Origin: Adineta ricciae
Taxonomy: Eukaryota; Rotifera; Eurotatoria; Adinetida; Adinetidae
Assembly (NCBI GenBank): GCA_905250025.1
Contig: CAJNOJ010000199.1
Coordinates: 124,001 to 188,000 of the forward strand
DNA: 64,000 nucleotides
Reading direction: 5' to 3'
Of the stretch, positions 13,017 to 46,630 are shown in pieces. The notes under the pieces are model-generated. The model had not been told where the DNA came from. It ran no database searches and saw only the letters and a program-made list of their open reading frames with translations. How positions within the stretch are numbered: position 1 is the first letter of the stretch; each line of letters begins with the position of its first letter. Position numbers and translations under genes: made by a program.

Positions 13017-13337
13017 CTGAGAAAAACGACTAAATCACAGCTTAACTCCTAAACAGTAACCAGATCAAGTCGATCATGGTTATTAAAAAGTCATGAACAT
13101 CGAATTTCTGATTTTTCATCTTGAATTTATCAAATCTAATACATGAACAAGATACTGATTAACGCGATAAACTCTAGTCGCTGTCTAGTTGCAGCTGATC
13201 TGGATTAATGATCGAATACAAGAGAACACTCAATGAAGCGTATTCTCTATAAATAGTCAAGCAGAGTCACTGAATGAAACGGCAAACTGTTTTTCCTCCG
13301 CAATTAATAGTTTCTTTTTGTTTATTCAAACAATCAA

Positions 13338-13801
13338 TTAAATGTTTATATTTGTTGAACTGTTCGTATTTCTTTCCGTCGCTTGCTTTTCAGCTTCAAG
13401 CCGTAAATAGGGACCTCGATAGATAAACATCGTAGCTGCACTAACAACAAAAAGACAAAGCATAAAAATCGACGCCGGGGTTAAAATCTGCCCCGATTTG
13501 TATTTCGGTTGTAATTTGATCAAATAGCCCAGAATGAAAATAAAAATTCCTCCAAGAACATTACCCAAACACATCAATAACCCCGTTGACCATTCTGCAC
13601 GAATCGGATGTGTACATTCGACAGCACATTCGAATGACACAGGCAATAACGGCAGTAGAAAGAAACCCATTAGACCAATAGAAACCGCTAATGGGTAATA
13701 CTGACTTGGTCGAAGAATTAAAACAAAAAATATTCCCGATCCACATGCACCAATTAACAAAATCTTCAAAATTAAACGATATGCATGAGTTTTATCCATG
13801 A
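13338..13801 (-). CDS. SLC49A3-like transporter, C-terminal part (haplotype B)
   Basis: The C-terminal 153 residues of the MFS transporter described in full at 21034-22607. The reading frame is cut at its upstream end by the n at 13802. The remainder of this allele resumes at 37115; comparison with haplotype A shows about 396 nt (A positions 21719-22114) missing between them. The stop codon is at 13338. Confidence 0.85.
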
Positions 13802-13802
13802 N
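13802..13802. other. Contig join, haplotype B to A
   Basis: A single n. The left side is the middle of the SLC49A3-like gene of haplotype B (-). The right side jumps back to the third exon of the three-module gene of haplotype A (+). Positions 13803-14101 repeat 5434-5732, showing that 5732 and 13803 belong to the same haplotype. Confidence 0.9.
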
Positions 13803-14286
13803 ATCGGCTGTACGAGATTATGGTAGTCATCGTGTGAAGTTTTCTGTTCCTGGATTCTATGTCGGATGTTACGTGATCGAATCACTACTCAGATCCAACT
13901 TGCAGTGTTTTTATAATCAATCATGTGTCAGCACACTACAATCGTATTTTACCGGAGTTTTACAATTTAATGCAACAGCACTTGACTCATCACTAACAAG
14001 TGAGTATTCACAAAACTCAACAATACAAGATCTTCTGAATTACTTGATGGTAGAAGAATGGGATATAAGAGGAAATTATACAAGTTACTACGCTGATTGT
14101 CGACCGTCACAGTGTGTCTATACTTACACTGTCAGAAACAGTATTTTATACATAGCGACCACATTGATTGGACTGCTTGGTGGTTTGATAACGTTTCTAA
14201 GACTTTTTGTACCACGAATGGTGAAGTTCTTCATACGCTGTGTCCTAAAACGCAAAAGGGTAGTTCCGTATGGAATAGATATATAA
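13803..14286 (+). CDS. Three-module membrane protein, 3' end (haplotype A)
   Basis: The C-terminal 161 residues of the third module, from SAVRDYG through the last TM (TLIGLLGGLITFLRLFV) to VVPYGIDI and stop. It is the true continuation of the gene that starts at 1782. The apparent start next to the n is an artefact. Its 3' end differs from the B copy (5734-6139) by a few substitutions, for example NSILY versus NGILY and GIDI versus GIDT. Confidence 0.85.
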
Positions 14287-15094
14287 ACTTAAACAAGCAC
14301 CTCTTTGATAGTTTTGCAAAAGGGCGAATGGTTTCCGTGAATACTTTCCTCGCATATATACTTCATATATTATTTGATCTAGCTTGTGCTTACATGAAAT
14401 TGCTTTCGTATAATAAAAATGCAACCCTTGAATGCATCTCCATGATGTAATAAGCTGTTTCCGATATATTTTTGGAAATGAATACAGCTTTGATTTGACC
14501 TCTCAGACTGTATTGTCAAATGTAGCAGAAGATAATGTAGGTGGCATTTGACGTCAATTGATGCGTGTCATTGCGATAATATCTGTCGCTTGGAATGACT
14601 GTAATTCGCATCGTTGTGTATATCATATTGTTCAGTAGTGAACAATTCAGACAGTTGTCAATTTGCCATCAGCGAGCAGTGCAGTATCTGTTCTGTGATC
14701 AGCATTAGTATATCGAACGACAAGACCTTTTATTCTTACGGTGGCAAACGAGTAATAGGAGCTGTTGTCAGCATGCTCATTTTGATCGATTGGATAATAG
14801 CGTTACGGATCCTTCTTTCGGAGACCACCACGGAAGATATCGTTTTATTCCGAGCGCTTTGTGCTGAGTTTGATTATATAAAAATAAAAGGGAGAAGGCT
14901 GATTATCTTCTTGATAACATCCTTTAGGTGTTATAAAAGCTACTGGATATGAAGGAGAATATTTTTATCACAAGTTCTAACAAATTTTCTTTACGTTCTT
15001 ATCTTTAGTAAGATAATACAACAAAAAAGAGTCATTTCTCTGGTGAATCGTTTTGAAGGTCCTATTCTTTAATTGAATTTGCAATCGACAGAAC
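14287..15094. other. Intergenic with possible ORF remnant (A)
   Basis: The counterpart of 6140-7019. A plus-strand frame (14614-14952) contains a TM-like segment (VIGAVVSMLILIDWIIAL), but its B counterpart has stops in the same frame (an in-frame TGA in the LILIN stretch), so coding is unlikely. Confidence 0.4.
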
Positions 15095-16962
15095 ATGGAT
15101 CGTCATTTTATTAACATAGTCCTTGTCGGCTTAGCTTTTATGATTCTATTCACAGCTTTTCAAGCGACAGGCATGATCGCAGTAAGTTCCTGTGAATTCA
15201 TTCATTCGTATGATCGATTTCTATTTACTCATAGCCAAGTGTTCTTGAAGGTGTGAAGAATGATACAATTAATGGAACGAGTTTTCAAGGAAGTGGTTAC
15301 ATCAGGTAAGTGTATAAGTTCGACTACATTTTTCTATCATGAAAATGCAGGGAGTAGTTGAACTTCATTATCTCTTCTAGCCTTGCGATTGTTTATACGC
15401 TATTTACTATTGCAAATATCTTTGCTCCTGTCGTCGTATCAACATGTGGATCGTCCATATCGATGTTTATCGGCGGAATTACTTGTTTGTTCGTAAATGA
15501 TAGTTAAATATGTATTCAAATGTCTACTTTGATCTTGTAGTTTATATGTTCTTTCATTCATTTCGCCGATGGTTTGGTCATATTATCTAGTCTCGATTCT
15601 ATTCGGAATTGGTGCCGCTATTCTTTGGACAGCACAGGGTGTTTATCTATCGAGAAATTCTAACGAAATGACGATAAGTCGGAATACAGGCGTGTTTTGG
15701 GCAATGTATCAATCGAGGTTAAGTAGATTGAATGTTAACGGACCGACAACTTGCGTTTTTAGTCTCATTCCAGGTAATCTATACGTGTATTTATCGATTG
15801 ATACAGAAATGATTACTCGATCAGTACGATATCCACTATTCACTGTGTTTTCCATCGTTTCTGCTGTTGGGATCGCTTGTTTCGGTTTGGTCATTTGGCG
15901 AACGTTTAGTGAACGACGACGAGCGAATTCTGAGTTACTGAAAAACGAAGAGAAAGTCAGTTGCGTCGATACTGTCGAAACATTAAAGATCGCACTTCGA
16001 CTTCTAAAAACTCGAAATATGCTTCTTCTTCTAATACCGTTTGGTTATACTGGTAATCTTCTCCACTGGCGACAAGGAAAATATGTTTTTCTCAATATCT
16101 CGTAGGTTTTGCCTTAACTTTCTTTCAAACTGTTTATCCAACATGTATTGGCCATTTGATCAAATATGGAGGTGAGATTTCGAGTGATTTGACAAGAAGT
16201 TGATTTTGTCTTTTCTACAGACAAACGTAAAAGATTGATTGGTCTCCATGGAATCCTTGTTGGAGTTGCAGAAATATTTGGCAAGTTACATTAAGTATAG
16301 ATGATTGAATCGAGTGTTTGTGTAGGTGGTGGGCTATTTGGATTTATCACTAAGCCGAAAACATCGTTAGGACGTAGTCGAATTGTATTTGTTGGTTTCA
16401 TTGTGCAGCTTGTTTTTTATTATTTGGTTTTCATTAATTTTCCATCCGATGCACCAGCAAACGAAACAAATAATGAAGCATACTTTAATTTTAAGTGAGT
16501 GAGTTTTAATCATTGTGGAAGTTTGCAGAAAACGTGTTTTAGATTATTGATAAGTCAGATTCTGACTTTCGTCGGCTCGTTCCTGATTGGTCTTGGCGAT
16601 TGTAGTTTCCATACTCAAGTTGTTACTCAAATTTGATTTCTAACGAGATATTTCATTGACTTTCTCTTTCAGCTATTTAATATCTTAGCTAGTCAGTACA
16701 AAAACACGAGTGCTTCAGCTTTTGCTCTGTTTCAATTAGTTCAAGTAGGATACAATTTGATTTTATTCATTTGATTTCATATTCATTTATTCAGGGTGGA
16801 ACATCGGCTGTTGCTTATGTTTATGCATCAAGTCTTGCTGTCGAATATCAATTACTAATTTTAGTCATTACTTTGCTGTTAAGCACACTTGCTTTATTTG
16901 TTGTTTTGTTTTCAAATGCAAACAATGATTTCGATGAAGCATCTCCGTTAACTATAGGTTGA
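15095..16962 (+). CDS. MFSD11: UNC93-like MFS protein, MFSD11 type (haplotype A)
   Basis: The second allele of the gene at 7020-8883, with the same exon pattern from ATG 15095 to stop 16960-16962. Splice borders are preserved, including the 45-nt GC-AG intron at 16281-16325. Substitutions are mostly silent or conservative (for example NEPTTC to NGPTTC, which falls inside the short intron, and DLDESSS to DFDEASP at the C-terminus). Both alleles therefore look functional. Confidence 0.85.
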
Positions 16963-17083
16963 CAAAGACACTACTGCTATCCACACACGCACTCTTTTGA
17001 CTCTCAGATAACGATATATGTCATCAATTCTTTCATCACTTAGCTTATTGACACTTTAGTACACTTGCAAAAAAGAAAATGCA

Positions 17084-18641
17084 TTAAAATAGTCTTGCCA
17101 GACCGCTACCCGCTACATGGCGTTCTTTTAAGGGTCCGCGGTAAAAAGCGTTTGACACACCACCAACTGACAGATGAATGGCTTTTACGCCAACTATATA
17201 GGCTGTACAGGAGCCCTGAAGATTAGCTTTTGCAACTTCAGCAGCACAATGTGTACCATCAAACGCCCCAGATCCATGACTTTCAAGCTGCAATATATTT
17301 TGTACTCTGCCTCGAAGCTTCAATGAGCCAGAGCCATGTAGACGCGCTTGTAGGCTATTGACATCCACTGCTAAATTTACATTTGACGAACCGTGGAGAA
17401 AAAGTTGTAGCGTGTCGGCCGCTGAAAGAAGCGTATTGGTGGAAACGATTTGTCCTGAACCGTTCGCGGTTAAGCAACGTAAGCTTGGCATTTGAATGAA
17501 AACTTTCATAACAGAATAGCTGCAGCTACCAAGTCGTATGCCGAGCGTGTTATTTTCAACCACAGTTTGAATGCATCTTGAGGTGTGAAGACTCTCATGC
17601 GTTTCAATCTCCACCACTGATTGTTTTTCATACGAATGACTTAATTGAACATCGAACTCGCCATCAAGTATGATACAGTCAAAGCTACTCACGGGATACT
17701 GTTTTCTTTGAGTTCTATCACATGCATTGGTTGCATAGCTTCCGTTATTAATAATGCTTACATGAGAACCACTACTGTTATTAATGCACATGTTGTTGAC
17801 AGATGATTGAGAAAATGGTGTGGACATTCGTTGATCTTTACCGGTTTCACGTGAATCATTACTGTCTTCAACAAACGGCGGTTTTAGCAGCTGTACTGGA
17901 GGATTTTTTAGTTCTTTGACATGGATGATGTGTAGACCGGGAGCTGGCGACAATTTGCTTGCTACAACTAACTGAGTGGCTGGCATGAGTAAAACTTCGT
18001 CTTCTGCTTCATAGAATGAATGATTTCTGATAAATTTTCCATTGCAGCATTCAATGTTAAAGAGTGTTCGCGTTCCGCTTTTTGTCAAAAACTGTTCGCG
18101 TTCCGCTTTTTGTCAAAAACTGTTCGCTTTGCAAAACATCCAATGATTTCGTGCAACTGCTAAATCCCCACCAGACAACGGTGTCACCTATGTTTAATTT
18201 CTCGCTAAGATCAGCATTGACTCCCCGATAAATACACATCTTCTGATTCGGCAATTTCCATAAGCCCGTGAGAAGTAATTTCAAAAATGGGAACCAAATT
18301 GTGAGCGCTCTTCGACTTTCAGCGCGAAGCGTTTGATTGAGAACCAAATATAGACTTGCATTGCTATTGTCACTCTCCATTGTGTACAACTGGAGAGCTG
18401 CACTCTCATTCTGCGTCAGACCGTCCTTTGGCTCTTTACAGTTTTGTTTCGATATATAAACCTTGGCGTCAATATCTTCGTCGAGAAGGTGCTTCACTGG
18501 TGTAATGGCTTCTTCTAACGATACCAATGGAGTTGTCTGGTAGCCACTAATAGGAAGCAAGTATTTTCTTGGTTCATTTTCGACGTCAGAAAAACGCTGG
18601 TGAGGAATTCGAGACGATGTTGTTGAATGTGAGGTCGTCAT
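17084..18641 (-). pseudogene. ART-GIN gene, frameshifted allele (haplotype A)
   Basis: The allele of 9003-10532. It begins normally at ATG 18641, but a 28-nt tandem duplication (18070-18125) shifts the frame after about residue 180. The product would be about 194 residues, keeping the Arg and Ser strands of the ART domain but losing the ExE catalytic motif and the whole GIN domain. The downstream frame (18088-17084) is otherwise intact and closely similar to B (FDCIILDGEFDVQLSHS, LHGSGSLKLRG), so the break is recent. A sequencing or assembly error is the main alternative. Confidence 0.75.
18070..18125. repeat. 28-nt tandem duplication in ART coding region
   Basis: Units 18070-18097 and 18098-18125 are identical, and haplotype B (about 9990-10017) has one copy. 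The single copy in B is flanked by a 7-nt direct repeat (tgttcgc), so slippage between short repeats explains the duplication. 28 nt is not a multiple of three. Confidence 0.85.
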
Positions 18642-21033
18642 TATTTGTCGAACAGCGCATGAAATCTTTATCGAAGCAAAAAAAATAAATTCAAGCTTTA
18701 TCGTAAATGTTAGCTTTTATTTGCACAAGGGAAGGAAAGAAAGCAAAACAGTAAGTTGGTAGAAGCCTATTTACGTGATTCATTCTATTTATATGATCCG
18801 TTGCACTGTGAGACATCCATGACTTACGCTAAAGGTTGGTATGGATTATCTGAAGTGTTTTAGCATACTATCAGCTCAAGTCCATTACGCCATACTACAA
18901 CTAACCCATTTACATCAGCTAGATGTCGTCAGTGCCCAAGTGATCGGCGTGAGCGATATTCCGTCAGGTAAAATTAGAGAAAAGTTGCTTAATGATGTTC
19001 TCCTTTTTTAAATCGATTGAATTATATATATATGTTCTACATTGGAAAACGTTTCACATAATCATAAGAAGTGCTATTGAGGAAAATGATCATATAATGG
19101 CATACATAAGCGTTTGATTTTTCTCTTAATTCACTGACATACTTCATATTTTGAAACGAGCGATCATATGCACTCGTTCTTCAGATTTATCGTCAGTTTG
19201 GCGCTTCAATTCTGATTGTTACATATTCATCATCAGTAAGAACAGGACTATAAACAGTGATACACTAATGGTGAATAAAAAATTTAATATATCTGATTAA
19301 CACGTGAAAATCCGATGCTAGCTGCATTGATATGATCAATCATGGGTGTGTAATTATGTATTAGCAATGAATGTAAAACTAAATATCTTCAATGAAGTGG
19401 CGAACTTTATCCAGTGGTCCCTCGTTTTCACGTATAGTTTCAATCGAGATAGATATCGAGAAATATATACCAGCCCACAGGATCCAATTGTATTTTTAAC
19501 GTTAAATGTTCAATACTGGCTGTTGAAAATTTTATATCGAAATTGCCTCGAGAACTCTCGTTAGCCTCTAGTATCAGATGTTCCAGTGAAAATGATAGAA
19601 AAATAAGGCGAAAGATATCATTATGGAATACACGTGCTAATTGTCATATGTAATTGATAAAGTTGACCTTTACGATTTAACTTATGACGCAATTCTAATT
19701 AAAGATTTTTCGTTCTGTACGTCAAATACTTTCAATATGCGCAGATTATAGAATTGATTAAGATTGAATTACATAAGAAATTGTGATACTTGGTTAAGCT
19801 ACATGCGGCTACATTCTACATTCAAATGAATGATCACAGTCACTAATAAAAAGTTATTTAATCTTAATTATGAGAATTAATTCCACTGGTAGAATTTCGA
19901 ATTGAGCTGCTATTCTCGTTATATTCTATGATTTGTTTACATGGTATTCTTCCGAATGATATACGATGCGTTTATATGAGTATGACGACGAAGAAGTGAA
20001 GTTTTTCATTCTTATTTTTCGTATGTCATTTAATGACTTTTATCTATACAGCTTCTTATTGATGCAACAGAATGCAAAAGTTCTTTAATCAATCATGATG
20101 AAATTATTTAATCTTTCGGTGAAGTTCGCAATGACATGAAACACAGTTTTGTTAATAAAATAAAAAATAAAAGTGAATAATAATCAGCAGCAGGAAATGA
20201 CTGATGTCTCGTTGCTAATAAACGTGTTGTTACAGCTAAAAGAAATCAAATTTAAGAGGTTACTATGCGCAAGTATGTCCTATTCACTTGAACTCGTTAC
20301 AGATATTGGGTTGACTATACAAAGCGAGTAAATATCCAAGAAATTCAAACGAAAAAGCTTATCAGCGCAGCCCCTTTAGGGCTATAACATGCGAAACTCA
20401 CCTTCTTGTGTTTTGAGAACGAGAGTGTAGACGGGAACAAGTCGAACGAGAGCCGTGAACAGTTGAATAAAGTACAACATCAGAAACGGTTCCATTTCCA
20501 CTGTCCAGGTGAATGCCGATGTATTCACTAATGTATGAAGCTACTGCAATGAAAGATTTATATCTGGATTAAAATCACTGATCGTGATCCATGCGGACCA
20601 ACATTGAAAGGAAACTGTACAAAGCGTTTGAGTTGTGAAACTTGGATTTTCATAGTCATCGATATTTAAAATCACCCACGGTCACTGCTTACAAACCAGA
20701 AGCATCTCCGTTTGAATATTTTTCGACAAGAATAAAGCTTCCATTGCCAAAATGTCAATAAGATTTCTCGGTGAAGATGTTACCATCTGAGAAAAATGAC
20801 TAAATTACAGCTTAACTCCTAAACAGTAACCAGATCAAGTCGATCATGGTTATTAAAGTCATGAACATCGAATTTCTGATTTTTCATTTTGAATTTATCA
20901 AATCTATTTAGCTGCAGCTAATCTGTATTAATGAGCGAATACAAGAGAATAGTCAAGCAGAGTCACTGAATGAAAAGGCAAACTATTTTTCCTCCGCAAT
21001 TAATAGTTTCTTTTTATTTATTCAAACAATCAA
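18642..21033. other. Intergenic with decayed remnants (A)
   Basis: The counterpart of 10533-13337. It holds the broken LRR-like remnant (about 19240-19690, minus) and the broken small ORF (about 20431-20790, minus). The rest is AT-rich sequence without recognisable features. Confidence 0.45.
20431..20790 (-). pseudogene. Broken copy of small unrecognised ORF (A)
   Basis: The counterpart of 12631-13016. Relative to B there is a 1-nt insertion (catcgatatttaaaatc versus catggatattaaaatc), a further one in gccaaaatgtc, and other changes, so the 80-codon frame is not kept. Confidence 0.45.
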
Positions 21034-22607
21034 TTAAATGTTTATATTTGTTGAACTGTTCGTATTTCTTTCCGTCGCTTGCTTTTCAGCTTCAAGCCGT
21101 AAATAGGGACCACGATAGATAAACAACGTAGCTGCACTAACAACAAAAAGACAAAGCATAAAAATCGATGCCGGGGTTAAAATCTGGCCCGATTTGTATG
21201 TTGGTTGTAATTTAATCAAATAGCCCAGAATAAAAATAAAAATTCCTCCGAGAACATTGCCCAAACACATCAATAACCCCGTTGACCATTCTGCACGAAT
21301 CGGATGTGTACATTCAACAGCACATTCGAATGACACAGGCAATAACGGCAGTAAAAAGAAACCCATTAGACCAATAGAAACCGCTAATGGGTAATACTGA
21401 CTTGGTCGAAGAATTAAAACAAAAAATATTCCCGATCCACATGCACCAATTAACAAAATCTTCAAAATTAAACGATATGCATGAGTTTTATCCATGATAA
21501 TTCCGACTAAAAATGCACTGAATAGTCCAGCAACGATCACGACTGCACCGAAGATTCNGGCAATAACGGCAGTAAAAAGAAACCCATTAGACCAATAGAA
21601 ACCGCTAATGGGTAATACTGACTTGGTCGAAGAATTAAAACAAAAAATATTCCCGATCCACATGCACCAATTAACAAAATCTTCAAAATTAAACGATATG
21701 CATGAGTTTTATCCATGATAATTCCGACTAAAAATGCACTGAATAGTCCAGCAACGATCACGACTGCACCGAAGATTCCAGCATCTTCACTCGAATATCC
21801 ACTAGGTTGAATCAACTGAAACAATAACGTTGTTATGGAGTTGAACAAAGCCAAACCTAATGAAAAGCCAATTAACAATATCAAATACTGGTAATTTCTA
21901 AGTAAATTGGCTAAATCTTCTTTTAAATTAATGATTTGATGATGCTCTTCTGACGGCGATGGAGGTGTGGGAGGATCAGATTGAAATATCATCAACAATA
22001 ACAATGTTGATACTAAAGTCAATCCACTTTCAATAATCAAAAGAACAAAGAAGTCTTTCCATGTCGGATTATCATTGATGATCAACGAAGGTACCAATGA
22101 TCCAATGGCCAAACCTAACGGATTCGCCATCGAGCAGATCGCTGTGGCGATATCACGTTGCGATGGAGCAAACCAACGTGCAGCGAATAAAGCAGTCGAA
22201 TTCAAAAAGAATGGCGCGGCTAACGCAGGAAAGATTTGACCGACGAGTAATGCTGCATAACCATATTCTGGAGTGATCAACGACAACAAACGAATGAAAA
22301 TGCCAAGATTTAACAATCCACCGATGATCATCGTCATTCGCATGGACATTTTTCTAGATAACCAGATGGAGATGATCGTGCCGACTGGATAGAGAAACAG
22401 AAAAACGATTGCTAAGGTGTTGACTTGGGTGGCTGTGATGTGGAAGAATGTCGACGCTTGCGATTCGATCGGAGCGAATGTCATTCCGCTGATTGCATTG
22501 GTGAATGTGGATAAAATGTAAACAATTAATTGAATCCATCGAATTGTATACACACGATATTGGGTGATCTCATTGAGTGACGCAGTCGATTCGGTTCTCT
22601 CGGGCAT
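21034..22607 (-). CDS. SLC49A3 (MFSD7)-like MFS transporter (haplotype A)
   Basis: A single-exon gene of about 450 residues once the contig-overlap artefact at 21338-21778 is removed. The ATG is 22607; an in-frame TTG two codons upstream is not a likely start. The protein has about 12 hydrophobic segments and family landmarks of the SLC49 branch: YRVYTIRWIQL at the N-terminus, SFAP-like TFAPI, the loop signature SDPPTPPSPSEE between TM6 and TM7, and C-terminal YRGPYLRLEAE. Human SLC49A3 has comparable PPTPPS and PYRRLQAE strings. SLC49 members transport or are linked to heme, choline or pyridoxine; the substrate here cannot be read from sequence. The promoter region lies before 22607, with the F-box/UBC gene transcribed in the same direction upstream (start 25286, end 23663). 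Confidence 0.8.
21338..21778. repeat. Contig join within haplotype A (n at 21558)
   Basis: Positions 21338-21557 recur as 21559-21778. Both sides carry haplotype A variants (cagtaaaaag where B has cagtagaaag). The overlap plus n is 221 nt, so here the frame breaks and the transporter falsely appears as two overlapping ORFs. Confidence 0.85.
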
Positions 22608-23662
22608 TTTCAAAATATGTTTGTGTAATATTTAACAACGGTTATCACAGTTCTTATCTAACCTCGTGTAGGTAACAACACAAGAAGAAAAAATGAAACT
22701 AGAACGAAAGCATCAACCAAGTTACCTGTTGTAGTAGTTAAGATAGTCAGATATCGAAAAAGGATCTACTGCGGCAAAGTTTCTATTGAAAAGTCATCAA
22801 ATTACAAAAAAATTGAACACGACTCGCTGATGTTCTATTTGAAGAAAATGTGATGGTATCTCTATCAACGAAAATTCCAGTCGATGTTTTTCACTCCGTC
22901 TTGATTGAAACAATCGAGTTTGACCAGTTCTTTGTCATCGTACATAATTAACTAATGATGCTCTTTAAAGTAGACCGTATATTCTTTGAAAATTGTGGCT
23001 AAAACCGAGAACGACAGTCAAGGATTCTTAATTTGTACTCAGAGATATCTCGAATAACTCCACGGAATTCAGGTCACAGGAACCAAACTGGTCAACATAT
23101 TTATGCAAATGTTCTACTAGTTCAGTATTAAATTGATTTGTTCCAAGTTTTTCTCCTAGATTTGTAATGGTTTGGTATAAATTCGTTCGAATACGTGAGC
23201 CAGTTTCTGACAGATTCTCTCGCTTTCCATTCGTTTTCGTGTTCGAGCACCCACGGAAAAATTTAAAAGCAGATACCACTGATCGGTGCAGACTTTTCAT
23301 GATGTTTGGGGATATATCGTTGAAGATCGGGATGAAATGTAAATTGATTGCAGTCTTTGAGGAGCATCGTCTTCCACAGATTCAAAAGACAGGTTTGATT
23401 TTATGTACTTAGAAAAACATGCTTATGAAAAATTGTAAAATTCCTTTTTATGCATACAGTTGAAAGAAAAGAAAACCGGTTTATAGAGGGTGTCAATGTG
23501 AATAAAGCAAATTCTCTCGTTCATTATATATCCACACCCATACCCACACCCTCGAATGCAAATACTGTCATACATGCCATCCTTACATTCATAGTAAGAA
23601 CTACACAAGCTCACAATCTTTATAGTATATAGTGTAATTGTTTGTTATTTTTCATAATGGAA
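22608..23662. other. Intergenic, nothing coding recognised (A)
   Basis: A minus-strand ORF at 23028-23300 has no recognisable domain, and in B the homologous stretch is interrupted by inserted sequence, so I do not call it. The 3' part contains a short telomere-like C-rich tract (23531-23553). Confidence 0.45.
23531..23553 (-). repeat. Short telomere-like tract (A)
   Basis: tccacacccatacccacacc followed by ctc: about four C-strand units of TGTGGG/TATGGG type. It lies about 110 nt beyond the stop codon of the F-box/UBC gene. Haplotype B has a shorter version (38960-38974) and lacks the next 100 nt or so. Confidence 0.5.
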
Positions 23663-25286
23663 TTAATAACGCGGTCGCCCATACGCTAACGTAGAATTCA
23701 ATGCCTTATCATAAAATTCTTGAGGATTATTTTTAAATTCATCAGCAAGCGCATGATTCAAAGATCGACTATAACTGGGAATTGTGTCAATAGTACGAGT
23801 GACAGCTTCAATCAGGGTCGCAAGAGTCACAGATGGTCCCCAGCTTTCGCCAGGCAATGAATGTTGAAAACAACAACACGAATACCCATCGTTGTCAATG
23901 TCTGGATGATAGATAGGGTCGCAGAAGACTGTTTTAGGACACTGGAAGGGATATGTTGATGAGAGTGTAATTTCGATTAGAAATGACGCATGACAGTACG
24001 GCTCAGTTTGTGGTAAGATTCGGCCTTGAATTACAATGGCGTCCTTTGCATGACGCCGCGTCGTTGCTGCTGTACCGTTGAAACGTGGAAGGGGCTCGCC
24101 ACAACGTAAAGAAAACCCTGGAAAACAATCGAGTATAAATTTGTTTTCAGCTTCTAGTTGTTCAATTTTCTTAAGTTCAACTTGTAGACGTCTTTGACGT
24201 AAGCCGCCAGTTTCTACAAAAAAAATGTCATTTGTATATAACATATAGTTTGAATCAAAACTGCTGTAAGCAGCCACCATCGAAACAGGTAGTTTTACCA
24301 CATAAATGACAAAAACATGTTCTCAGTTTCTACACTACTAGTTATTGTCTGAATTTACCCTCATCCTCAAAATTAAATACCGCCCTGCTTCATTTCTCAT
24401 ATAAGACAATTCTAAAGCAACAAAAGAAGCTTACTTTTTAACAGATTAATCAATGTAGAGCCAGCACCTGTGAATGATTTCAGATTGGGGCACAAAAGCA
24501 GAAGTTTTTGATGATCGTCAGCCGTTTTCATATTTAGATGCAGATGGCAAAGAGTAGGTGAGCCAGTCCAGGTTTCATTGTATTCAAAATCTCCGAGACG
24601 AACTGCTGTACATGTTCGAAGTTGAGGAAAACCATTTGAAAGTATTACTTGGAACAAATCATTTACTGTTCGTCCGTTACTCTGGTCAGGAGTATGAAAT
24701 ACTACATGTACAAACAAAATTAAGTGAAAGAGGATGACACACTAAAGAGAGGAAAGAGTTGTTCACTTTCCTGAGAACGTGAACGACGGTAGCTGACTCG
24801 AATTTCGATCCCTGTACACTTTATTCATATCGAACTTTCCGAGATTAAATGCTTTCGAAGTAAATATCTAACTGACAGATCATTTGTTTATGACTTATGT
24901 GACTCACCAGCATAAAGATGTAAAGTTTCCAGCTTGGGAAAGTGTTGCGGGCGAATATCGTTGAATTGAGCAAGTGTACCATATTTTAGTGTAAGCGAAC
25001 GTAGATTGATCAAAGAGGTGAAATCAACCGTTTTAGCATGAATAAGAACTAGGCGAACAATTGAGGCAGGAAAACAATGTAGATAGTTAATCGCATCGGT
25101 GTCATCATATTTCACCACATGACTCACAGTGATCATCGACTGAATGATTGAATTGATACGAGAGTTAAGATTAGAAAAGGTTTTACACAGCTCGGAAGAT
25201 GACAAGAAAGTAAAGATTTCAGCCAAAATTTCAACTGGTAAATGTTCCAGCGACATAGTAGATGTACTCTGATCACTCATGATCAT
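23663..25286 (-). CDS. Predicted F-box-LRR-E2 ubiquitin-conjugating fusion (haplotype A)
   Basis: Three exons: 25286-24908 (379 nt), 24701-24435 (267 nt) and 24213-23663 (551 nt). Junctions are phase 1 with donors gtgagtc and gtaagct and acceptors catgtag and tttgtag; the predicted product is about 399 residues. Exon 1 holds an F-box (SLEHLPVEILAEIFTFLSSS onward, residues 12-45) and the first leucine-rich segments. Exon 2 continues LRR-like sequence (LFQVILSNGFPQL, LHLNMKTADDHQKLLLLCPNL). Exon 3 is a UBC fold closest in style to UBE2L3: RRLQVELKKIEQLE helix, YPFQCPKTVFCDPIYHP, a candidate catalytic Cys at about residue 328 in DIDNDGYSC, then the C-terminal helices ending LAYGRPRY. The usual HPN is HPD in this allele. 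F-box proteins recruit substrates to SCF ligases and E2s carry activated ubiquitin, so the fusion would couple both. The alternative is a separate E2 gene starting near 24301; that extension differs between alleles more than the rest, which favours an intron. Confidence 0.6.
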
Positions 25287-26499
25287 GAAACTTGTAAAAT
25301 TGCGCGGCGTGTTCCGATTCTCCGTCTTTAAAAAGTGCTCTGATGCACAGTTATAAATTCTTCCCAACAGTGACTTATATGGGTTTTCTCTAAGCAGTAT
25401 TACATGATGTATAAAGATAAGAGATGTAATTTCTTTACAATTTATGACGATATTATTTGTTTCGAACAAAAACACATACACTGCTACAGAATTATATATG
25501 CATATGACTCATCGGAAAAATACCATGACATGTTCTCCCGCAAACAAGTAAAAGCACACGTGCAGACACAGAACCGAAAGAAAAATGGACGTATATACGG
25601 ATGATACATCAAAAATAATGCAGATGAAATAATTGGTACGAGTAAGTAAATATCTCATGTAAGGAGCTTCACGAAAGGATGAAATATTTTGTAATTGTCC
25701 AATAAAATGACGATAAAGAGAATGGTTGTGAATAAAGGAATTCTCTTCCTCATTATACATATACTCTTTCGCTTTCACATGAGAACGGAGAATGGGAAAA
25801 AGAATGATAAATGGGAGAAAGAGTGGGGAATATATGACTAGAAAAATCGCATCCGTAGGACACTAGACAGTCTCCTAGAAAATTCATCACAGAAAAACTT
25901 CGCTTCACTTAGAGAAAAATTTAATTTCAACGTCGCCTAGAAGCTGTATCACACGTATGTTTTATATTAAAGATAGACCCTTAGAAACCACATACTGCCA
26001 CGAGTGTTCTTTTGAAGAATAATTAAATTGGAAGTCTTAACAATCAAACTAATTGAAAATGAGTTAAGGAATATCACTGACTATTTTACACAACAAATTG
26101 ATCTTTATTAGTTCGATCTGTATTGACTTTGAAATCTCCAATCATATTTATTTTAGTCCATATATTTATCACTGGCAAAGAGTATGAATATAGTTACGAT
26201 TCCATACATAAGAAATGTTCCCTACGCAAATTTCCTCCTGTATGATCACATGGTCATTGTCAACGGCTTTAGAAAGCACCGTTGATGTTCAGATTAGCGA
26301 GGTTTTACTATCCATGACATTTCTTTTACTTCTGCTGTTAATGATAGAGAGAATATTCCGATCAATTTTCTTTTCTGTTCTGTACTGTTTCTAAATTGAA
26401 GAAGGATACCATTGCTGACGGAGAAACGAAATAAAAACATTCGAATAATCATTTTCATTCTCTGTTTTGATAGGTTTGAGCGACATTACGTTCGTTTGT
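25287..26499. promoter_or_regulatory. Divergent intergenic region between F-box/UBC and calpain genes (A)
   Basis: 1.2 kb between divergent starts at 25286 (-) and 26500 (+). It presumably contains both promoters and any 5' UTR exons. Minus-strand ORFs 25404-25604 and 25509-25778 are not frame-conserved in B. I see no defined site. Confidence 0.35.
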
Positions 26500-28868
26500 A
26501 TGGCGTTTGCTGTTCCTTCTTCGCCAGGCGTTGAATTATGGTCGTGCAAATTTTGCTCCTTTTTCAATACGGTTTCAATTTCTTCGATTTGTCATATGTG
26601 TCAAAAAGACAACGGCGTAACTGTAACGGAAAACAGCACGGTTTGGTCATGTTGTACAAACGATCGAAGTAATCAAACCAATCAAGTTCGTCAGATCCAG
26701 ATGTAGTTTTCAAGTATTGAGTTAATTTCTTTTAATCAAAATTTAGATTGTGTCTCACGATGAAATATCGGCGCCAGCCAAAGCAGAATTGCAGAGATTG
26801 ATATCCACCAATATTTCTTCACTGAGTGCCATAGAACGACAAAAACAAGATGAAATCGATGCGCAATGTAAGCTTATTGATATTATTCAATACTGTCAAG
26901 AGGTAATACCACTATTGATCAAATAATAAAATGTATTATTAATCCTTCTCTTCAGAACCGTATTCATTTCGTCGATGATCAATTTCTACCATCGAATCGT
27001 TCAATAGGTGCTGAACCACCGATTGCATCTGTTTCGCAATGGTTGCGAATTCGCGAAATATCATCAGACAATGATGATTCGAAGGAACCATGGACAGTTA
27101 TGTCAAATCCACACCCAAATGATATTGCACAAGGCTATTTAGGAGATTGCTGGCTTATGGCTGCACTAGCGCTTATTACTGAGCGACCAGATATACTTTC
27201 TCATGTTCTTCTTACACCAGTAATAAATGAAGAAGGTGTATACTTAGTGCGTATATGTCACAATGGACTGTGGAAAATAGTTCTGATTGATGACTGCTTC
27301 CCGTGCACCAAAAATAAGCGACTTGTATTTGCAAAGGTTAAAACATTATATCAATTGTAATTCTTTATCATTTTTGAGCTTTTAGGCTAGACACCGACAG
27401 CTTTTTGTTCCATTGATTGAGAAAGCATGCGCAAAAATATGGGGTTCTTACAACAAGCTGTCTGGTGGTTTCATGTATGAAGCATTACATCTCTTAACAG
27501 GTGCTCCTTCTGAGGAAATACAATTAAATGTGACAGCAAATGACGATAATGATAATAGAGACTTACTTTGGACCAAACTAGTTTCGGCATGTGAAGCCAA
27601 GTATGTTGATTAACTTTGCTTTTTCAACTCCTTTTCAATCAATGTTCATAGCCTTTTGATGGGCGCGTCAACGGGCAATACCGATCTACCTGACGAGGAA
27701 TATCAAAGCGCACACTTGAGCCGTAGTCATGTATTTTCAGTACTGGCATATCATGCTCTATCGTATACAGAACGTTTCCTTCTAATTCGAGATCCTCATG
27801 GTAGTTCAAAATATACGGATGATTTTATATGCCCAGACATACTTCAACAACTTCAGCAGATTAAAACTGCTGAAACAATGAATGGAACTTTTTGGATGTC
27901 CTGGCTGGTATTTCAAAGATTTTTTGGTTCATTGATTATATGCGCATATCGCGATAATCTCTTTGACGTACGATACGAAGGAAAATTCACTAGACATTCT
28001 GCTCAAACAGTGCAAGCATACTATTTTCATGTCGAAAAGTAAGATCATTGTCAAAACATCTGTTCGTCATTATCTGATTTATATACCCAGGTCAACAACA
28101 ATAACAATGGGCCTTTTTCATCAGCGCTCCGATCGAAAAAAATATAACTACCGACACACACAAGCGTTCGTACTTTGTGATATTTTAAACACTGAAATTG
28201 GTCAGCGAGAAACTGTTTTACGTAGTAGTCAAAGTGCCTATACTGAATGGACAGGAACATTATCATCAGGTGCTTACGTACTTATTCCATTTTCGACTTC
28301 CTACTGGCATCGAGAAACAAACAATGAGGAGGAGGAGGATGAAATTAACTACACAGTAGTGATTCATTCATCAGTTAAATTAGATATATTTATTACGGAG
28401 GAATCAGGGAAAGTATTGGCTGATTGTCTTATTGCTAATATCGTACAACATCATCGAATACTAAAGAAGGTAAAGATAGCGATGTGTTTCTTGCAAAGTT
28501 TTTTTTCTCTGTTTCAGAGTTCCAATTACGCCTTATATATTTCTGAAGAGCCTGGTGCCTATTTGATCCTGATTGTTGGCGAGAATACATCCACAGAGCA
28601 TGCACTTAATGTTGATATTGATGTATCTAAATCGTTAAATATTCGCCATTCTCGCAACACATCAATTACGCTTGATTCGATTCCATCACAGCATCGTCAA
28701 ATTCATCTTCTAGTCGATTATATCTATAAGAGTGGCGAAAAAACATGTTATCGATACACATATTTATGTACTCATAATGCAGCTGAACGACGACCAACAC
28801 AACCCAACATAAGTAGAGCAGATGATATACATGCTGCACGACCTATATACCATGGAAAGAAATCTTAG
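26500..28868 (+). CDS. Calpain-15/SOL-type protease with RanBP2 zinc finger (haplotype A)
   Basis: Seven exons: 26500-26685, 26747-26902, 26956-27336, 27386-27600, 27652-28038, 28091-28469 and 28518-28868. All junctions keep frame, giving about 684 residues. The N-terminus has a RanBP2-type zinc finger (WSCKFCSFFNTVSISSICHMC), followed by a second Trp/Cys segment that may be a degenerate finger. This layout is typical of small-optic-lobes/CAPN15. The calpain core shows the nucleophile in GYLGDCWLMAA (Cys about 179) and the His in SRSHVFSVLA (about 339). The third catalytic position reads IRDPHG where calpains have RNPWG, so Asn is replaced by Asp and Trp by His. The C-terminal 250 residues (from TITMGLFHQRS) resemble the calpain-15 C-terminal region but I cannot assign a domain firmly. 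The start at 26500 is the first ATG in frame; an upstream non-coding exon is likely because an acceptor (gatag) precedes it at 26474. Confidence 0.75.
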
Positions 28869-29335
28869 CCTTTGAAAAACCACAGCGCATATTCTCTTTG
28901 ACATCTATTTTTTATTCTTCTACGTAGATCGGATGATTTGAGTGTCTATAATTCAACAGTTTTCTCTTTGTGATGGATTTGTCCTTCCGCGTCACGCAAG
29001 GTCGAAGTAGAGAGAAACATTTTGTATCTATCTTTTTCGTTCCTCCTATGTTGGTATATTTCCATTGCATCCATTCTGTAATTTCGTGATATTAGCTAAA
29101 AAGCTTATCAAGCAGGGTAATTACAGCAAAATTTTTTATAATTGACGCGTTCGTATGTATTTAATGAGACCTTTTTTGCTTCTATCAACCGAATATTTTA
29201 AGAGTGAATCATGTGAAAATTTCGAAGTTCAAGAGAATGTGTCATTTTCTAATTACAAAACCATTTCAGTTTAGCGTCGATGTCGAAATGAAAATGAGAA
29301 ATTATGTATTAGTTTTTGAAGGTAGTTCATATCAA
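28869..29335. other. Convergent intergenic region (A)
   Basis: 467 nt between the 3' ends of the calpain (+) and the type II membrane protein (-). AT-rich, with no recognisable feature beyond presumed 3' UTRs. Confidence 0.4.
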
Positions 29336-30126
29336 TCAATTAGCATGATAAATGATTCTTTCCCAAGTTGTATCCGAATTCAAGCCAGTTGTCGTTCCAC
29401 ATCTGTATCCCCCGCTCCCACCATCCGTGTGCCAACATAAACGATAAGCGTCATTTGTTGATCCTGTATCACAACTGTTTCGTTCTACAGCATCGGAACC
29501 ATTTACAAAGCCCCATGAATATGAATCAGAATAATACCATCCAACACCATTGGCTATTTGAGTACAATTCTCTGTAGTACTACAATCATAAAGAACGTCA
29601 GCTCGATTACCCATTGCTGCTACAGTTAATTTCACAGTATTGACTTGCCGACATCCAAGTAGCAATTTGGTTTTGTTGCATGAAGATAATATTGTGGAAA
29701 GACTTGACTGATCCATGGTGTCTGCATACGTATTATTATAGCATAATGACCATCCACTTGGTAATGAATTTGGATCGAAATCTAGCTGGACTCCACTCTG
29801 AGTTAATGATACTAGAAATAGATAAGCACCGATATTATTAAAGTATGGAAATGTGAATTTCAGACCTGTAGCAATTGATATCGTCGTCGTCGTCGTCGTT
29901 GTTGTTGTTTTTTGTAGATCTAAATAAAATTGAAATTATCAAAATAACTATAAATTCATTAAAAACCTTGAATATATTGTGTAATTAGAGCACCAAGAGC
30001 AATTCCAGCACAAAGTGCACCGACAATAAATCCACATAAAATTGGCTTCCAACATCCTGCCCGAAATCGCTTCGAGATATCTTTGCCACTTTCTTCGTCG
30101 GTATTGAACTCACTTGTTTTACTCAT
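29336..30126 (-). CDS. Type II membrane protein of a rotifer-abundant Cys-rich family (haplotype A)
   Basis: Two exons, 30126-29967 and 29919-29336, joined in phase 1 (CAAG/gttttt ... tttag), giving about 248 residues. The N-terminus is polar and cytosolic (MSKTSEFNTDEESGKD), followed by a TM segment (ILCGFIVGALCAGIALGALI). An extracellular poly-Thr linker comes next, with eight Thr encoded by ACA/ACG repeats. The ectodomain has conserved strings GWSLCYNNTY, LSSCNKTKLLLGCRQ, LTVAAMGNRADVLYDCS, GVGWYYSDSYSWGF, RLCWHTDGGSGGYRCG and TTGLNSDTTWERIIYHA. I recognise the ectodomain as a repeatedly occurring bdelloid family of unknown function. Its regular Cys and Trp pattern suggests an extracellular binding domain. 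Confidence 0.75.
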
Positions 30127-31200
30127 TTAGATACAAAATAGGTCGATCGTTTGAAAGGTAGACCTATTTCTACTCGATAAGAATGAAAAATGAACTCAAA
30201 AGACGAAGAATACCTTTCAAGTATTCGAAAAATTGTAAAAGTAAGTTAGAATTTCTTTGTATTTGTAAAAACCCATAGGAATCAATAGAATGGAATCACA
30301 AGATTTGTTTTCAATATTGTAAGTAAAATAATTTCAAACTTATTTTTTTAAGCTCTTCATCTTTATAACATACAAATCAAACACAGGATCAAGATTGTAT
30401 GTATACCTTGAGAAATCAAACATGCTGCAAGTTCATGTTGAAGAAAAGAGATAATGAACTCGAGTGCCTTTCTCGAAATATCTTATTGAGATATTCATAT
30501 ATACCAATGGAGGAATAGAATAAGTAAACAAATGTTCTTGAAAACAACAGCTGCTAGGATTCATTTATTCGAGATTCATTCTGAGTTATTAGTGCACAAC
30601 ATTGAAAATAATATCACCCTAGGTGGTAATGATACCATCTCAAGTGTCAACTCTAGTGAGCTTTATAGCACATGAAAGCCGGTGAAAATGAAGTTTTTTC
30701 GACTTTTTTCAGCAAACTTTTGTTTCATACTCTACGAAATACTTCATTTCTCCATGACTTAACTAATACGATTAGTGAATGATGTGACAACCATTAGAGC
30801 TCTTTACCGCATGAAGCCGAGATGGATGCGAACACAGAAGAGTTTCAAAAAATTCCGTGTCTGATAAAACATCTTCAATGTGTGTTTTGAGTGCCGTTTC
30901 CAGGTAACGGTTGTTGTCCGCTTTGAACAAGATTTTTCTCAATTTCGTCTTTCATTATTATGATCCAATGTGTTCTGGCACATTAAGATTCAGCGACTTT
31001 TCAGGCCAGATATAATTGTTCCAAAATTTAACGTCGTTACCTTGAAACAAATACTAGATCTTACTCGCATTAATGCGTGACGCTTCATGAGGATCGGTAA
31101 CTTTTCTTCATTGTTGTAGAAGGTGAATACGTTCTTTGTCAAAATCACATCTCGAAAATATTCACCAGTTCGTACGGCTCGCCTTTGTCTCTGATCACAT
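30127..31200. other. Intergenic, nothing recognised (A)
   Basis: About 1.1 kb upstream of the type II membrane protein gene. It contains a partly palindromic stretch around 30617-30640 (tatcaccctaggtggtaatg) but no gene. It leads into transposon-derived sequence. Confidence 0.4.
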
Positions 31201-31517
31201 AGAGTAATCTCTTGCAAGTGAACATGATGAAAACTCTAATGCATGCTCGGCGGCTAACCATTTCTCGATACTTCTTGCTCTAATTCAATCATTTAGGTAA
31301 TTTGGTCTGCGGACGGCTCATGACGGAAGATATTTAGGTGTTTAAGCCCTTTAAGTTCCATCTTTTGGCGGCAGGTACACCTTGATGAGGCATGAGGAAC
31401 CTCAGGATGAGATATTGCATTTTCAAGATGCATACGAAAAGAGACTGAAATGAAAAAATGGCTGTTTTTAGAGAACTGCAGAGTATTCAGACGGATATCT
31501 GTTTTGATTTCATTCAT
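31200..31517 (-). pseudogene. Inverted transposase-like remnant (A)
   Basis: A minus-strand frame reads KMELKGLKHLNIFRHEPSAD, nearly matching GPKGLKHLNMFRREP on the plus strand at about 31788-31832. Two related fragments therefore face each other head to head. Downstream reading frames are broken. Assigned to the piggyBac-like remnant by this resemblance only. Confidence 0.4.
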
Positions 31518-31784
31518 TGCTTATGCAATGTGTTCGGGATTTAGAGTCACATCATAACTTCATAAAAAACGCTTCTTGCTATTTATCAGCCTATAAAATA
31601 ATCAGACCCTCAAACTTCTCGTCTAGTGTCGTTGTATGTTGACATACTATTGATCATCTTTTTCGTATTCTCTGCTAATATATGATCACACCTGCTCGAA
31701 TAGTACGACGTGTTCGTATCCTTTGTTTATATTTCCCGAGTTACTCCCTCTCTCTGTTCTTCTATCTGCCATGCTTGATTTGTG

Positions 31785-32229
31785 CGATGGGACCTAAAGG
31801 ACTTAAACACCTAAACATGTTCCGTCGTGAGCCAATGGTTAACAGCTCTTCAGTAGAATCTACTACTCATGAAGAAATGTTAGAATTTTTTGGAATTATC
31901 ATCGAAATGGGTTTGGTAGAAATGCTAAGAGTGGACTATTATTAAAGCAAAAGTAATTTATGTGGTTCCGAAGTTATTCAAAACACCACGTCAAGCGGCA
32001 AATTCGAATTACGTCTCAAATTTTATCATTTTTCGAACAATAAGAAAAAACATGAAGATGACGACAGATCGTTCAAGCCGAGATCACTTCTTGACGAAAC
32101 GATGGTATCATGAAAAGGTAGATTTCTCCTCAAATCATATATTTCTGGTAAATCTCATAAATACGGAGCGAAAATATACAAGGTGGCGAGTACAACAGGA
32201 TATAGTTGGAATCGTATGACTTACGTTGG
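31785..32229 (+). pseudogene. piggyBac-like transposase remnant (A)
   Basis: Two blocks fit the piggyBac transposase (DDE_Tnp_1_7) fold. The first, THEEMLEFFGIIIEMGLVEM, resembles the conserved 'e.l.flG.li.MGlv' region. The second, further on in another frame, is DETMVS, stop, KGRFLLKSYISGK, HKYGAKIYKVASTTGYSWNR, resembling the 'DE.mv.fKGR ... KP.KyGiK.y.l..s.tGY' region. An in-frame TGA and frameshifts show it is dead. B carries the same remnant with the same stop, so it predates the split of the two copies. Confidence 0.65.
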
Positions 32230-32439
32230 TAAGTATTGTGCACTTTCTTGAACACATAATTGCTGCAAACGTAACATATCTATAATTTTCTTCTACATGA
32301 TTCGCATAACAGTCGTTAAGCTTCATCATAGAAATAAGTTAGAAAAAAAAGAATGGGGCTCAGCAAGATTCCGGTTTTATTTATTTTCAATAAATTCAAA
32401 CTAAAAGTCGATATATTTGCTTGCATTTGTTTTCTTCGT

Positions 32440-35400
32440 TCATAGAAAACATGATCTTATTCGGGTTTGAATTTGTGTACTTCTCTTTTGAAATTCGCCC
32501 ATATAGAGTTTGGATGGCATAACAAATATAATGAAAGTAAGCAGAGGAGGAATACATGAAATAAAATATCCAATTAAAGGTAGCCAAGCATCATAAGATG
32601 AATTCATACAAGCCGCTATAAATGAGAGAATTAAACGTGGAAACGCTAAGAGAACTAAAGCAAGAGGTGCAATAAGTAGATGAAGATGGTCTCGAATTTG
32701 TTCTTTTAAAATTTGTCGATATGTGATTTTTTTTTGAGCTTTTTTTCGTTTTTGACTCGTGAAAAAAATAATAACCAAAGCTGATATTAAATTAAGAGCA
32801 AATGGAACAAAAAAATGAATTAAATTTATAATTGAATTAAATATACGAAATTTTGATGAATAACTTGCAATACACCAAATACGCTTCTCATTATCTTCTA
32901 CTGCATCATCATCATTATCATGTAATATTCGTCGATGTATAGGATCATGTATTGCTGTAGTAATTGTCCAAAAAAGAAGTAGGATTATTATATATTTTGC
33001 CATTCGTTGACTTTTTTCCTTATTAAAACGAACACCTTGAAATGCTGTTAAAGCTCGTTCAGATGCAACACATGTATTTAAATATTGATCCATACAAAGA
33101 CCAACGCGAAGAAAAAAATCTAATGTATAACATTGAATATTTAAAAATATTGAATTCGTCACATAGGTCATTTGTGCATGGACGAAAATACTAAATTTTA
33201 ATAAGAATATAATTATGGTGAATAAAGTTGTTAATGATGATCCAAGTAGATAAACACCACAACCACTTTTTCGTAATTCACGACTTTGAAAAACCATTAG
33301 AGAAAGAATACCATTGATTATACCTAAAATTGTTATAATCATTGTCAATATTAAACTTAAATTTATAATGAATGGTTGACTTGTTAATTTAGCATAAGGT
33401 TGTATATGGTAACCAAGAATTGCATCAAGTGATAAACCAAATAAATGTGAATTGAATTGGCATCGTCTTCCATGAAAACATTTTGGACAAACACATATTG
33501 AGTTTTTCGGACATTTGAGGCCATCTTGAACGCATTTTCCACCATTTTCACAATCACTTAAATCTTGACAGTTGACTGATGTACGACTATCAAAATTAAA
33601 ACAATTACTCAAACGTTTATTGGTAAAATTATAGCATAGACAAAAATATGTATCATCATAAAAACAATTTAGATCCGGTGCATATTGTTCACATGGAATT
33701 TGAAAATATTTTACACGACGAAATGGATGCAATGAGAGAATTGTTTCGTTCAAGATTTCACGTACATGTCTACAACGATATGATGGCAGAATGATTTGAT
33801 TATATGTTTTTATAGACGAATTGTATGAATCTTGAACAAGAACTAAATAATATTTATCCATTAGTTGAACAAATACAATACTAAAAGCGTTTGACCAATA
33901 AACAGAAACGTCTTTTTGATAAAGAGATACTCTCTGCACAACTGAACTATCAGCTAAAAACCGTTCACTTAAAGCTGGTGGACTCATAAAATGAATAATG
34001 ATCGATTGTGGTAAACTAATATCTTTATGGAATGATAATTTTAAATATGTTCCAGCTTTTTCACAATTGTCTCCACGAAACCCTTTTCGGCATAAACAAT
34101 AATAAGTTTTACTCAATTGTAATTGTTTATCAAGGGGTATACATTGACCGTCATTAAGACACAATTTCTGTTCTTCCGAGCCACATGGATTACTATGAAG
34201 AAAACAACGAGCACCCCATTTATTGATTGGACAAACACATACAGATTGATTATTAGCCGTTACACCAATACATGATGAATTCAATGAACATTGACAAGTA
34301 TGAGGAATTGTACAATATTTTCCATGCCATCCTTGATGACATTGACAAAATGTCCGATTTCCTCCATCATTTATATAATAATAGCAGTGACCATGTTGAC
34401 ATAATTGATCTGAACATCTTTTTATCTGATACGTCTTACTTGGAATAGTCAATTGAACAGCGATGCGATTAATAGGCAAGAAACGATACTTAATTGGAAT
34501 ATAAAAACTTCCACGATATATCAAAGAAATCTTTTCATAAACATCAATATGTATTGAATAATTTTTTGTATAGGAATATGTTGGATGTAATAAATAAATA
34601 TTATATTTGTTTGAACAATCTTTAAAATAAAAGTATGTATTTTGTTCATATGAATAAATTGTTCGTTCATTATTATCGTTATCAATTAACGACACTATAA
34701 AAGTAAATAATACTCGTCGAGAATCAGAATGAACTTTAAATTGTAACGTTAAACTAACACGTTGTCGATCATATTGACATGTTTCACCATAATAACTCGG
34801 TGGACAAAGGCATGCTTCTACTGATGTTTTGTTTTTACTAGCCAATCGAACATGTAAAGGAAGTCCACGATGACAGCGTTGTTCATTTGAACGCGTAATT
34901 GAAAAGGCACGATCATGTTTTATTATCATTGAGGTTGTTTCGATTTGTTCAGTTGAACCTTTCTTTGGAAAATCCATGTGTTCCAGTAGAAAATAAGAGC
35001 CTTGGAGCTCATAATCTTCCTCGAGTCGTGTGCAAATAAAATTATGTTCGTCCGTATAAATTGATTCATATTTATAATCACAAATAGATTCGATTTTGGA
35101 AATATTTTCAAACAGAGAACAAAGTTGTTTATCTTCTCCATTGAGACATCGATTATTTTGCATACATAATTCGTGAGAATATTTACAAGTATCATTTTTG
35201 CAGTAGAAATTTTTCAATGGTACTGATTCTTTCAATCGACATAGTTTTGGTTCATCAGTAGCACCAACACAATCAATTTGACCATCGTTTGCCTTTTCTA
35301 ACGGTAAACATCCTAATTTAAATGTTTCTGGTGAAATACATTGATGGAAATTCAATGGACATTTTATATCTGGATTACAATTGATTTCATCCGCACCATT

Positions 35401-46600: not shown

Positions 46601-46630
46601 ATCTCGAAAATATTCACCAGCTCGTACGGC

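Follow-up and report, generated by a model that had tools for sequence, protein, structure and literature searches.

Substrate binding and an E2 domain are joined in one polypeptide in BIRC6 and UBE2O, natural E2-E3 hybrids of very large size, whose partner domains are unrelated and which are not known to have an F-box or to dock on an SCF complex. The UBC fold is also found in the UEV or pseudo-E2 proteins, such as UBE2V and TSG101, in which the active site is altered and the catalytic cysteine is missing. It is established that, in neddylated SCF complexes, ubiquitin can pass from UBE2L3 to ARIH1 and from there to the substrate of the SCF (PMC7904520, in part), and the partner domains named for F-box proteins are Kelch, LRR and WD40 (PMC4327156, in part). 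The available parts of PMC4327156 and PMC11354881 contain no mention of an F-box-E2 protein, and among the titles and the starts of abstracts in the open-access literature searched we found no report of such a fusion, though one may sit unremarked in the automatic annotation of bdelloid proteomes. The locus described here, from the bdelloid rotifer Adineta ricciae, places these known domains in that combination.

The window, meaning the whole stretch of DNA that was analyzed, comprises 64,000 nucleotides of contig CAJNOJ010000199.1 (positions 124,001 to 188,000), and it holds two copies, A and B, of the gene on its minus strand. A sequence-only reading of the window had proposed, for copy A, three exons with phase-1 borders encoding an F-box, LRR-like sequence and a UBE2L3-like UBC fold, and had described a second copy at 40648-38984 with the same exon lengths and phases; the exon and intron coordinates, the GT-AG borders, the phases and the identity of exon lengths between the copies were all confirmed. 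The features are as follows.

25286-24908, minus strand: copy A exon 1, with the start codon, the F-box and the first LRR-like stretch (residues 1-126); ends in phase 1
24907-24702, minus strand: copy A intron 1, GT-AG (GTGAGT...TACATGTAG), phase 1
24701-24435, minus strand: copy A exon 2, LRR-like part (LRR without profile support)
24434-24214, minus strand: copy A intron 2, GT-AG (GTAAGC...TTTGTAG), phase 1
24213-23663, minus strand: copy A exon 3, UBC (E2) domain and stop codon
23908-23900, minus strand: copy A HPD (hand-counted position; HPN in copy B, C1005, C188a and C188c)
23878-23876, minus strand: copy A codon of the catalytic-position Cys, residue 328 (hand-counted; aligned with PDB relatives and the fused UBCs)
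40648-40270, minus strand: copy B exon 1, F-box and first LRR-like stretch
40063-39797, minus strand: copy B exon 2, LRR-like part
39534-38984, minus strand: copy B exon 3, UBC domain, with HPN; catalytic Cys codon at 39199-39197 (hand offset)
22115-37038, no strand given: tandem unit 1, which holds copy A (window self-blastn)
37115-52803, no strand given: tandem unit 2, which holds copy B (window self-blastn)

The exons of copy A measure 379, 267 and 551 nt, and the spliced frame is open for 398 codons followed by a stop; its first Met lies at 25286, and the frame upstream of it contains no further Met in either copy. Copy B likewise encodes 398 amino acids, 37 of which differ from those of copy A, and the two copies are free of indels and stops in their exons, with a 41-nt indel in intron 2. 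Exons homologous to exon 1 of copy A occur on three other contigs (C1005, C188 and C396), and the intron at the place equivalent to intron 1 is 94 nt long in C1005 and 58 nt in the first of the C188 loci, C188a. The two tandem units match each other in four direct pieces at an offset of 15.0-15.8 kb and 90-95% identity. Direct tandem duplications fill much of the window (5734-21497, 22115-52803 and 52805-62989, with offsets of about 7.8-8.1, 15.0-15.8 and 6.1 kb and identities of 87-95%), and they are either real tandem duplications or haplotypes joined by the assembly. Copies A and B could be alleles joined by the assembly, which would change the copy number and not the architecture.

The three domain assignments of the sequence-only reading fared differently when the spliced translation was compared with Pfam. 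The UBC domain passes readily, with UQ_con matching residues 272-386 of copy A at E 3.7e-16 and 59.4 bits against a cut-off of 27 (75.7 bits in C1005), and the designation UBE2L3-like is borne out by UBE2L3 being the top solved relative among the best 60 of 206 matched PDB sequences (E 1.3e-14, 57.6 bits), followed in the same set by UBE2L6, UBE2T and UBE2N at 53.7, 51.6 and 41.1 bits. The F-box, by comparison, stays under the Pfam cut-off, since F-box-like matches residues 13-35 of copy A with E 5.5e-4 and 20.1 bits where 24.3 are required, and all four members scored fall below that value (C1005 21.2, C188b 17.5 and copy B 15.3 bits); the F-box exon at C396 has no Pfam match. Support for the F-box assignment in copy A is indirect and comes from homology: when five F-box exons of the family are combined into a profile, it matches a 382-amino acid frame at C197 with E 1.4e-23, and this frame belongs to a rotifer F-box protein that does pass Pfam F-box, with 34.2 bits against a cut-off of 20.5. 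Frames of unfused F-box genes at five further loci also match this profile. The third assignment was not upheld by profiles, as Pfam LRR, with E values as high as 1 allowed, finds nothing in copy A and scores 13.3 bits in the relative C188b, below its cut-off of 27, and a PDB search returned no significant relative, the best LRR chain having E 0.16; LRR-like is therefore an unproven label for this region. The rotifer protein is similar to SCF F-box proteins of the FBXL and FBXO kinds in having a predicted N-terminal F-box motif and then an LRR-like region within its first 215 residues, but it differs from them in adding an E2 domain, in the subthreshold score of its F-box and in LRRs that profiles do not support.

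A search of the window's own 130-Mb genome with the protein gave 103 matches, and a reading of the loci behind them yields a family of nine: A and B on C199, one on the 11-kb contig C1005, three on C188, two on C383 and one on C396. Three of the nine (A, B and C1005) are open from the F-box to the end of the UBC domain, and the other six are frameshifted, stop-bearing, truncated or missing a part. At C188a the F-box exon is frameshifted, while C188b keeps its F-box and LRR-like exons and has a UBC domain that breaks off at a single N (L031:5454), where there is an abrupt chimeric junction between the UBC and an antisense kelch-like gene. At C188c there is a UBC exon, with no F-box seen there, whose upstream side ends near another single N (L030:2254) lying just past the end of the UBC frame. 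The truncations at these two sites may be assembly joins; a further single N base stands at L032:4283. Both copies on C383 are decayed but retain F-box, middle and UBC pieces in unchanged order, and C396 has the F-box and a middle part with an in-frame stop, the UBC core being absent. A decayed middle piece with six stops on C418 was excluded from the nine loci. Across the three exon-equivalents, copy A and C1005 are 49.6%, 33.3% and 42.7% identical (61/123, 30/90 and 76/178 positions).

Both halves of the protein group by family. The fused UBCs of A, B, C1005, C188a and C188c make up a single clade with support of 100/99.7 (5 of the 28 tree rows), in a tree built without the rotifer E2 rows L001-L008, four of which stand in the UBC alignment. 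The F-box exons of the family also form one clade, at 100/97 (6 of 16 rows), where C396 is counted as fused despite its missing UBC, the C188a row was trimmed of its frameshifted 5' side and the 10 unfused rows are drawn from 5 loci only (L022, L023, L024, L027 and L028). Family profiles were run on 28 loci (L029-L056) rather than around all 137 UBC matches in the genome, and the other UBC matches were compared by eye with F-box-like places, for which 150 of 537 candidates were scored. Tandem clusters of unfused UBC genes are present at L036, L042 and L043 (on C28, C51 and C78), some of whose UBCs share with the fused UBCs a FILD/FLLD motif after helix 1, and these clusters are a candidate source of the E2 half. 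The nearest PDB relative of an unfused sister E2 is again UBE2L3, at 91 bits compared with 57.6 for the fused UBC.

The cysteine that had been noticed at the catalytic position does align there, as residue 328 of copy A, and it is kept in all five fused UBCs, with varying neighbors. The HPN motif is found in four of the five, copy A having HPD instead, and like UBE2L3 and UBE2L6 the fused domains keep the Phe of YPF and the loop-7 Pro (each 5/5), as well as the C-terminal YG-R stretch. The acidic residue at Cys+2 matters for the lysine reactivity of E2s; it is present in all seven unfused rotifer E2s shown and absent from all five fused UBCs, which in this respect resemble UBE2L3, where the Cys+2 residue is Pro. 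In UbcH7 (UBE2L3), RING1 contacts this Phe and this Pro as Phe63 and Pro97 (PMC5548887, in part), and the enzyme is described as reactive toward Cys only (PMC5758712, in part); our literature search found no paper on the residues of UBE2L3 that lie behind its lysine inertness. UbcH7 also contacts ARIH1 through K96, and the K96S substitution causes an approximately 30-fold loss of affinity (PMC5548887, in part). At this position the five fused UBCs have G, A, T, R and R, and both unfused sisters shown have Lys, and it is because this Lys is missing that we name the fused domain UBE2L3-like instead of assigning it to the UBE2L3 family. Its loss would be expected if the tether removes the need for affinity, and equally if the domain has ceased to work with ARIH1. 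The fused domains further depart from UBE2L3 and UBE2L6 in being joined to an F-box and in the loop that follows the Cys, which by hand count is longer than that of UBE2L3 by 3, 3, 1, 4 and 4 residues (by 1 residue in the two unfused sisters), and there are about 25 extra residues before the first strand, exon residue 58 aligning with UBE2L3 residue 32. When a fragment of UBE2L3 (120 residues) is placed in the tree, it is not a neighbor of the fused clade, though the deep forks are weak (66/67).

The layout of the protein, its conservation, the selection acting on it and the retention of the Cys can be read from the genome itself. We infer docking on an SCF complex, charging by E1, transfer to an RBR ligase and the substrate, and the mechanism that we tentatively prefer, at a little short of an even chance of being right, is that of an F-box substrate receptor whose C-terminal UBE2L3-like E2 would supply ubiquitin within its own SCF complex. 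This reading is favored because joining a UBE2L3-like domain to an F-box protein would bring it into the very complex that makes use of it. The F-box would dock the protein on SKP1-CUL1, and the middle part would bind a substrate or partner. The E2, charged by E1 on Cys328 and kept close by its tether, would then provide ubiquitin within this SCF complex at a high local concentration. The ubiquitin would most likely pass to the catalytic Cys of an RBR ligase of the ARIH type bound to neddylated CUL1, which is the known SCF route of UBE2L3, with RBX1-driven transfer to lysine being less likely and autoubiquitylation a possible off-switch. Profile matches in the genome, counted as matched stretches and not as genes, number 15 for Skp1, 96 for cullin, 88 for IBR, 53 for IBR_1 and 6 for Ariadne. 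The likeness to the neddylated SCF-ARIH1-UBE2L3 assembly, which also has an F-box protein and a UBE2L3-like E2 in one complex, is one of analogy only, since there the E2 comes in trans on ARIH1 (PMC7904520, in part) and here it would be covalently part of the receptor. The sequence-only reading had suggested that such a polypeptide would bypass the recruitment of an E2; the tether would make recruitment of the E2 local, and would not necessarily dispense with an E3. Against the mechanism stand the HPD of copy A, the missing Lys and Cys+2 acid, the longer loop, the subthreshold F-box scores, the six damaged or incomplete loci, the position of UBE2L3 away from the fused clade in the tree and the small contig of C1005, which is the key locus.

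The differences at the active site lend themselves to two further readings. According to the first, the UBC domain would be non-catalytic, a UEV-like binding module that acts in the SCF as an adaptor or decoy, by either recruiting or blocking ubiquitin, E1, RBX1 or an RBR, and this is our second choice, though we consider it rather unlikely. It would account for the HPD of copy A, for the longer loop and for the absence from all five fused UBCs of both the Cys+2 acid and the ARIH1-contact Lys, and there is an E2-like gene beside an F-box frame on C22 that has Gly at its catalytic position, indicating that non-catalytic E2-like domains do occur in this genome. A UEV would, however, be free to lose its Cys, and the fused UBCs, unlike UEV and pseudo-E2 proteins, retain it without exception and mostly retain HPN as well; moreover, exon 3 is the most constrained exon. 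The second reading, which we also find rather unlikely, is that of a built-in E2 of the transthiolation type, in which proximity would have replaced affinity, so that the K96-position Lys and the Cys+2 acid were shed and the Cys was kept, and which would feed only its own SCF-RBR complex.

The constraint on the preferred fused receptor can be gauged from the divergence of copies A and B. Over all exons their dN/dS ratio (omega) is 0.30 (Fisher p 5e-7), with 0.43 in exon 1 (p 0.048), 0.43 in exon 2 (p 0.22, which is not significant alone) and 0.21 in exon 3 (p 1.9e-6). The synonymous divergence is about 0.15 (0.19 in exon 3), and with a dS of only this size the survival of the pair has not been long tested. 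The introns of A and B, indels left out, differ by 6-7%, which is less than at synonymous sites. It could be supposed that the family is a relic, in that the fusion arose, spread to further loci through segmental duplications and is for the most part decaying, its function no longer maintained, and the six damaged or incomplete loci together with the decayed piece on C418, the low dS and the lack of significant constraint in exon 2 alone would all be in keeping with this. We nevertheless judge it improbable, considering that A, B and C1005 have stayed open over their full length despite the divergence of A and C1005 to 43-50% identity in the F-box and UBC parts and 33% in the middle, that omega between A and B is significantly low, and that two of the six damaged loci, C188b and C188c, are truncated at or near a single N and may reflect assembly joins.

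That the F-box and the UBC domain are made as one polypeptide is predicted from the gene sequences with high confidence. In C1005 no intron separates the LRR-like part from the UBC, and both lie in a single 275-amino acid frame, and the alignment of copy A with C1005 is free of gaps over residues 130-250, which span the LRR-UBC junction; in C188a the intron is present, in phase 1, with a length of 63 nt. Since C1005 has no splice site at this place, it cannot give an F-box mRNA that ends before the UBC by intron retention. The opposing view, that spliced-leader trans-splicing or alternative starts produce separate F-box and UBC mRNAs and that the fusion exists in the gene model only, finds some encouragement in the genome, where 22 bases of the rotifer spliced leader, for which there is a 23-base consensus (PMC3795323, in part), match at 45 places with one or two mismatches (reversed control 0; exact 23-mer 0 places), and in the in-frame ATGs that intron 2 contains upstream of exon 3 in both A and B. 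These matches support a rotifer as the source of the genome. By hand count, 36 of the 45 (on C6, C8, C77, C99 and other contigs) are paired in divergent orientation, with a spacing of about 150 bp for 28 of the 36, and their first base is T as against the published G (PMC3795323, in part). Exon 3 of copy A, however, has no Met in its 183 residues, so that a UBC-only product of this copy would need an ATG of intron 2, and in C188a the first Met of the UBC comes at position 141 of 184 and the short frame upstream of the UBC exon has no ATG. The Met argument covers only these two loci, as there is a Met at position 12 of exon 3 in copy B and at position 22 of the UBC stretch examined in C1005; the N-terminal Met is kept in both unfused sister E2s shown. 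Separate cistrons are disfavored mainly by the intronless junction of C1005 and the Met-less exon 3 of copy A, and we regard two products as very improbable. The same observations tell against the two outcomes that the sequence-only reading had named as contradicting it, UBC-only transcripts starting within intron 2 and F-box transcripts ending before the UBC exon, and its proposal of a single polypeptide is strengthened by the recurrence of the layout in relatives, by the uninterrupted LRR-UBC frame of C1005 and by a clade of fused members only for each half. A recent chance adjacency caught in one duplication is rejected, given that the layout recurs at C1005, on C188 and, decayed, on C383, and that both halves fall into such fused-only clades.

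Other places in the genome bring UBC and F-box sequences close together. On C22 (L052:683-1999), an F-box frame that scores 34.2 bits, above the cut-off, and whose F-box part has a single match in the genome, is followed some 180 bp downstream by a UBC gene with its own ATG and with Gly at the catalytic position (HGDIGLD). Of four frame-consistent single-intron joins between them, only one has a GTAAGG donor, and its acceptor is poor; we do not accept this locus as a second independent F-box-UBC fusion, and it may be two neighboring genes. A long-tailed UBC gene also lies directly upstream of an F-box/WD40 gene on the same strand at L057 (C268:109800-114000) and L058 (C9:306400-310000), where a UBC-F-box fusion was rejected on reading the frames, which look like a UBE2R-like E2 gene and then a separate FBXW7-like gene. 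The E2 exon on C9 is nearest to UBE2R2 (E 8e-30) and the F-box/WD40 frame on C268 is nearest to FBXW7 (E 1e-67), and we take these pairs to be the classic Cdc34-Cdc4 partners as head-to-tail neighbors, perhaps in an operon resolved by the spliced leader.

The usual view of E2 enzymes is that they are carriers held in common and exchangeable, and F-box proteins are likewise regarded as exchangeable receptors. A conserved family that hard-wires an E2 to a receptor would show that evolution can privatize an E2 for a single receptor, and if the transthiolation reading is true, the fused receptors would represent a route from E1 to the SCF that is dedicated to one receptor family and that has been fixed and diversified in a rotifer. 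A family of this kind also offers a small, naturally occurring system for studying whether SCF or SCF-RBR reactions can do without E2-E3 affinity when proximity is provided. Should the UBC domain instead be inactive, the family would be a novel type of receptor that binds ubiquitin or serves as a decoy.
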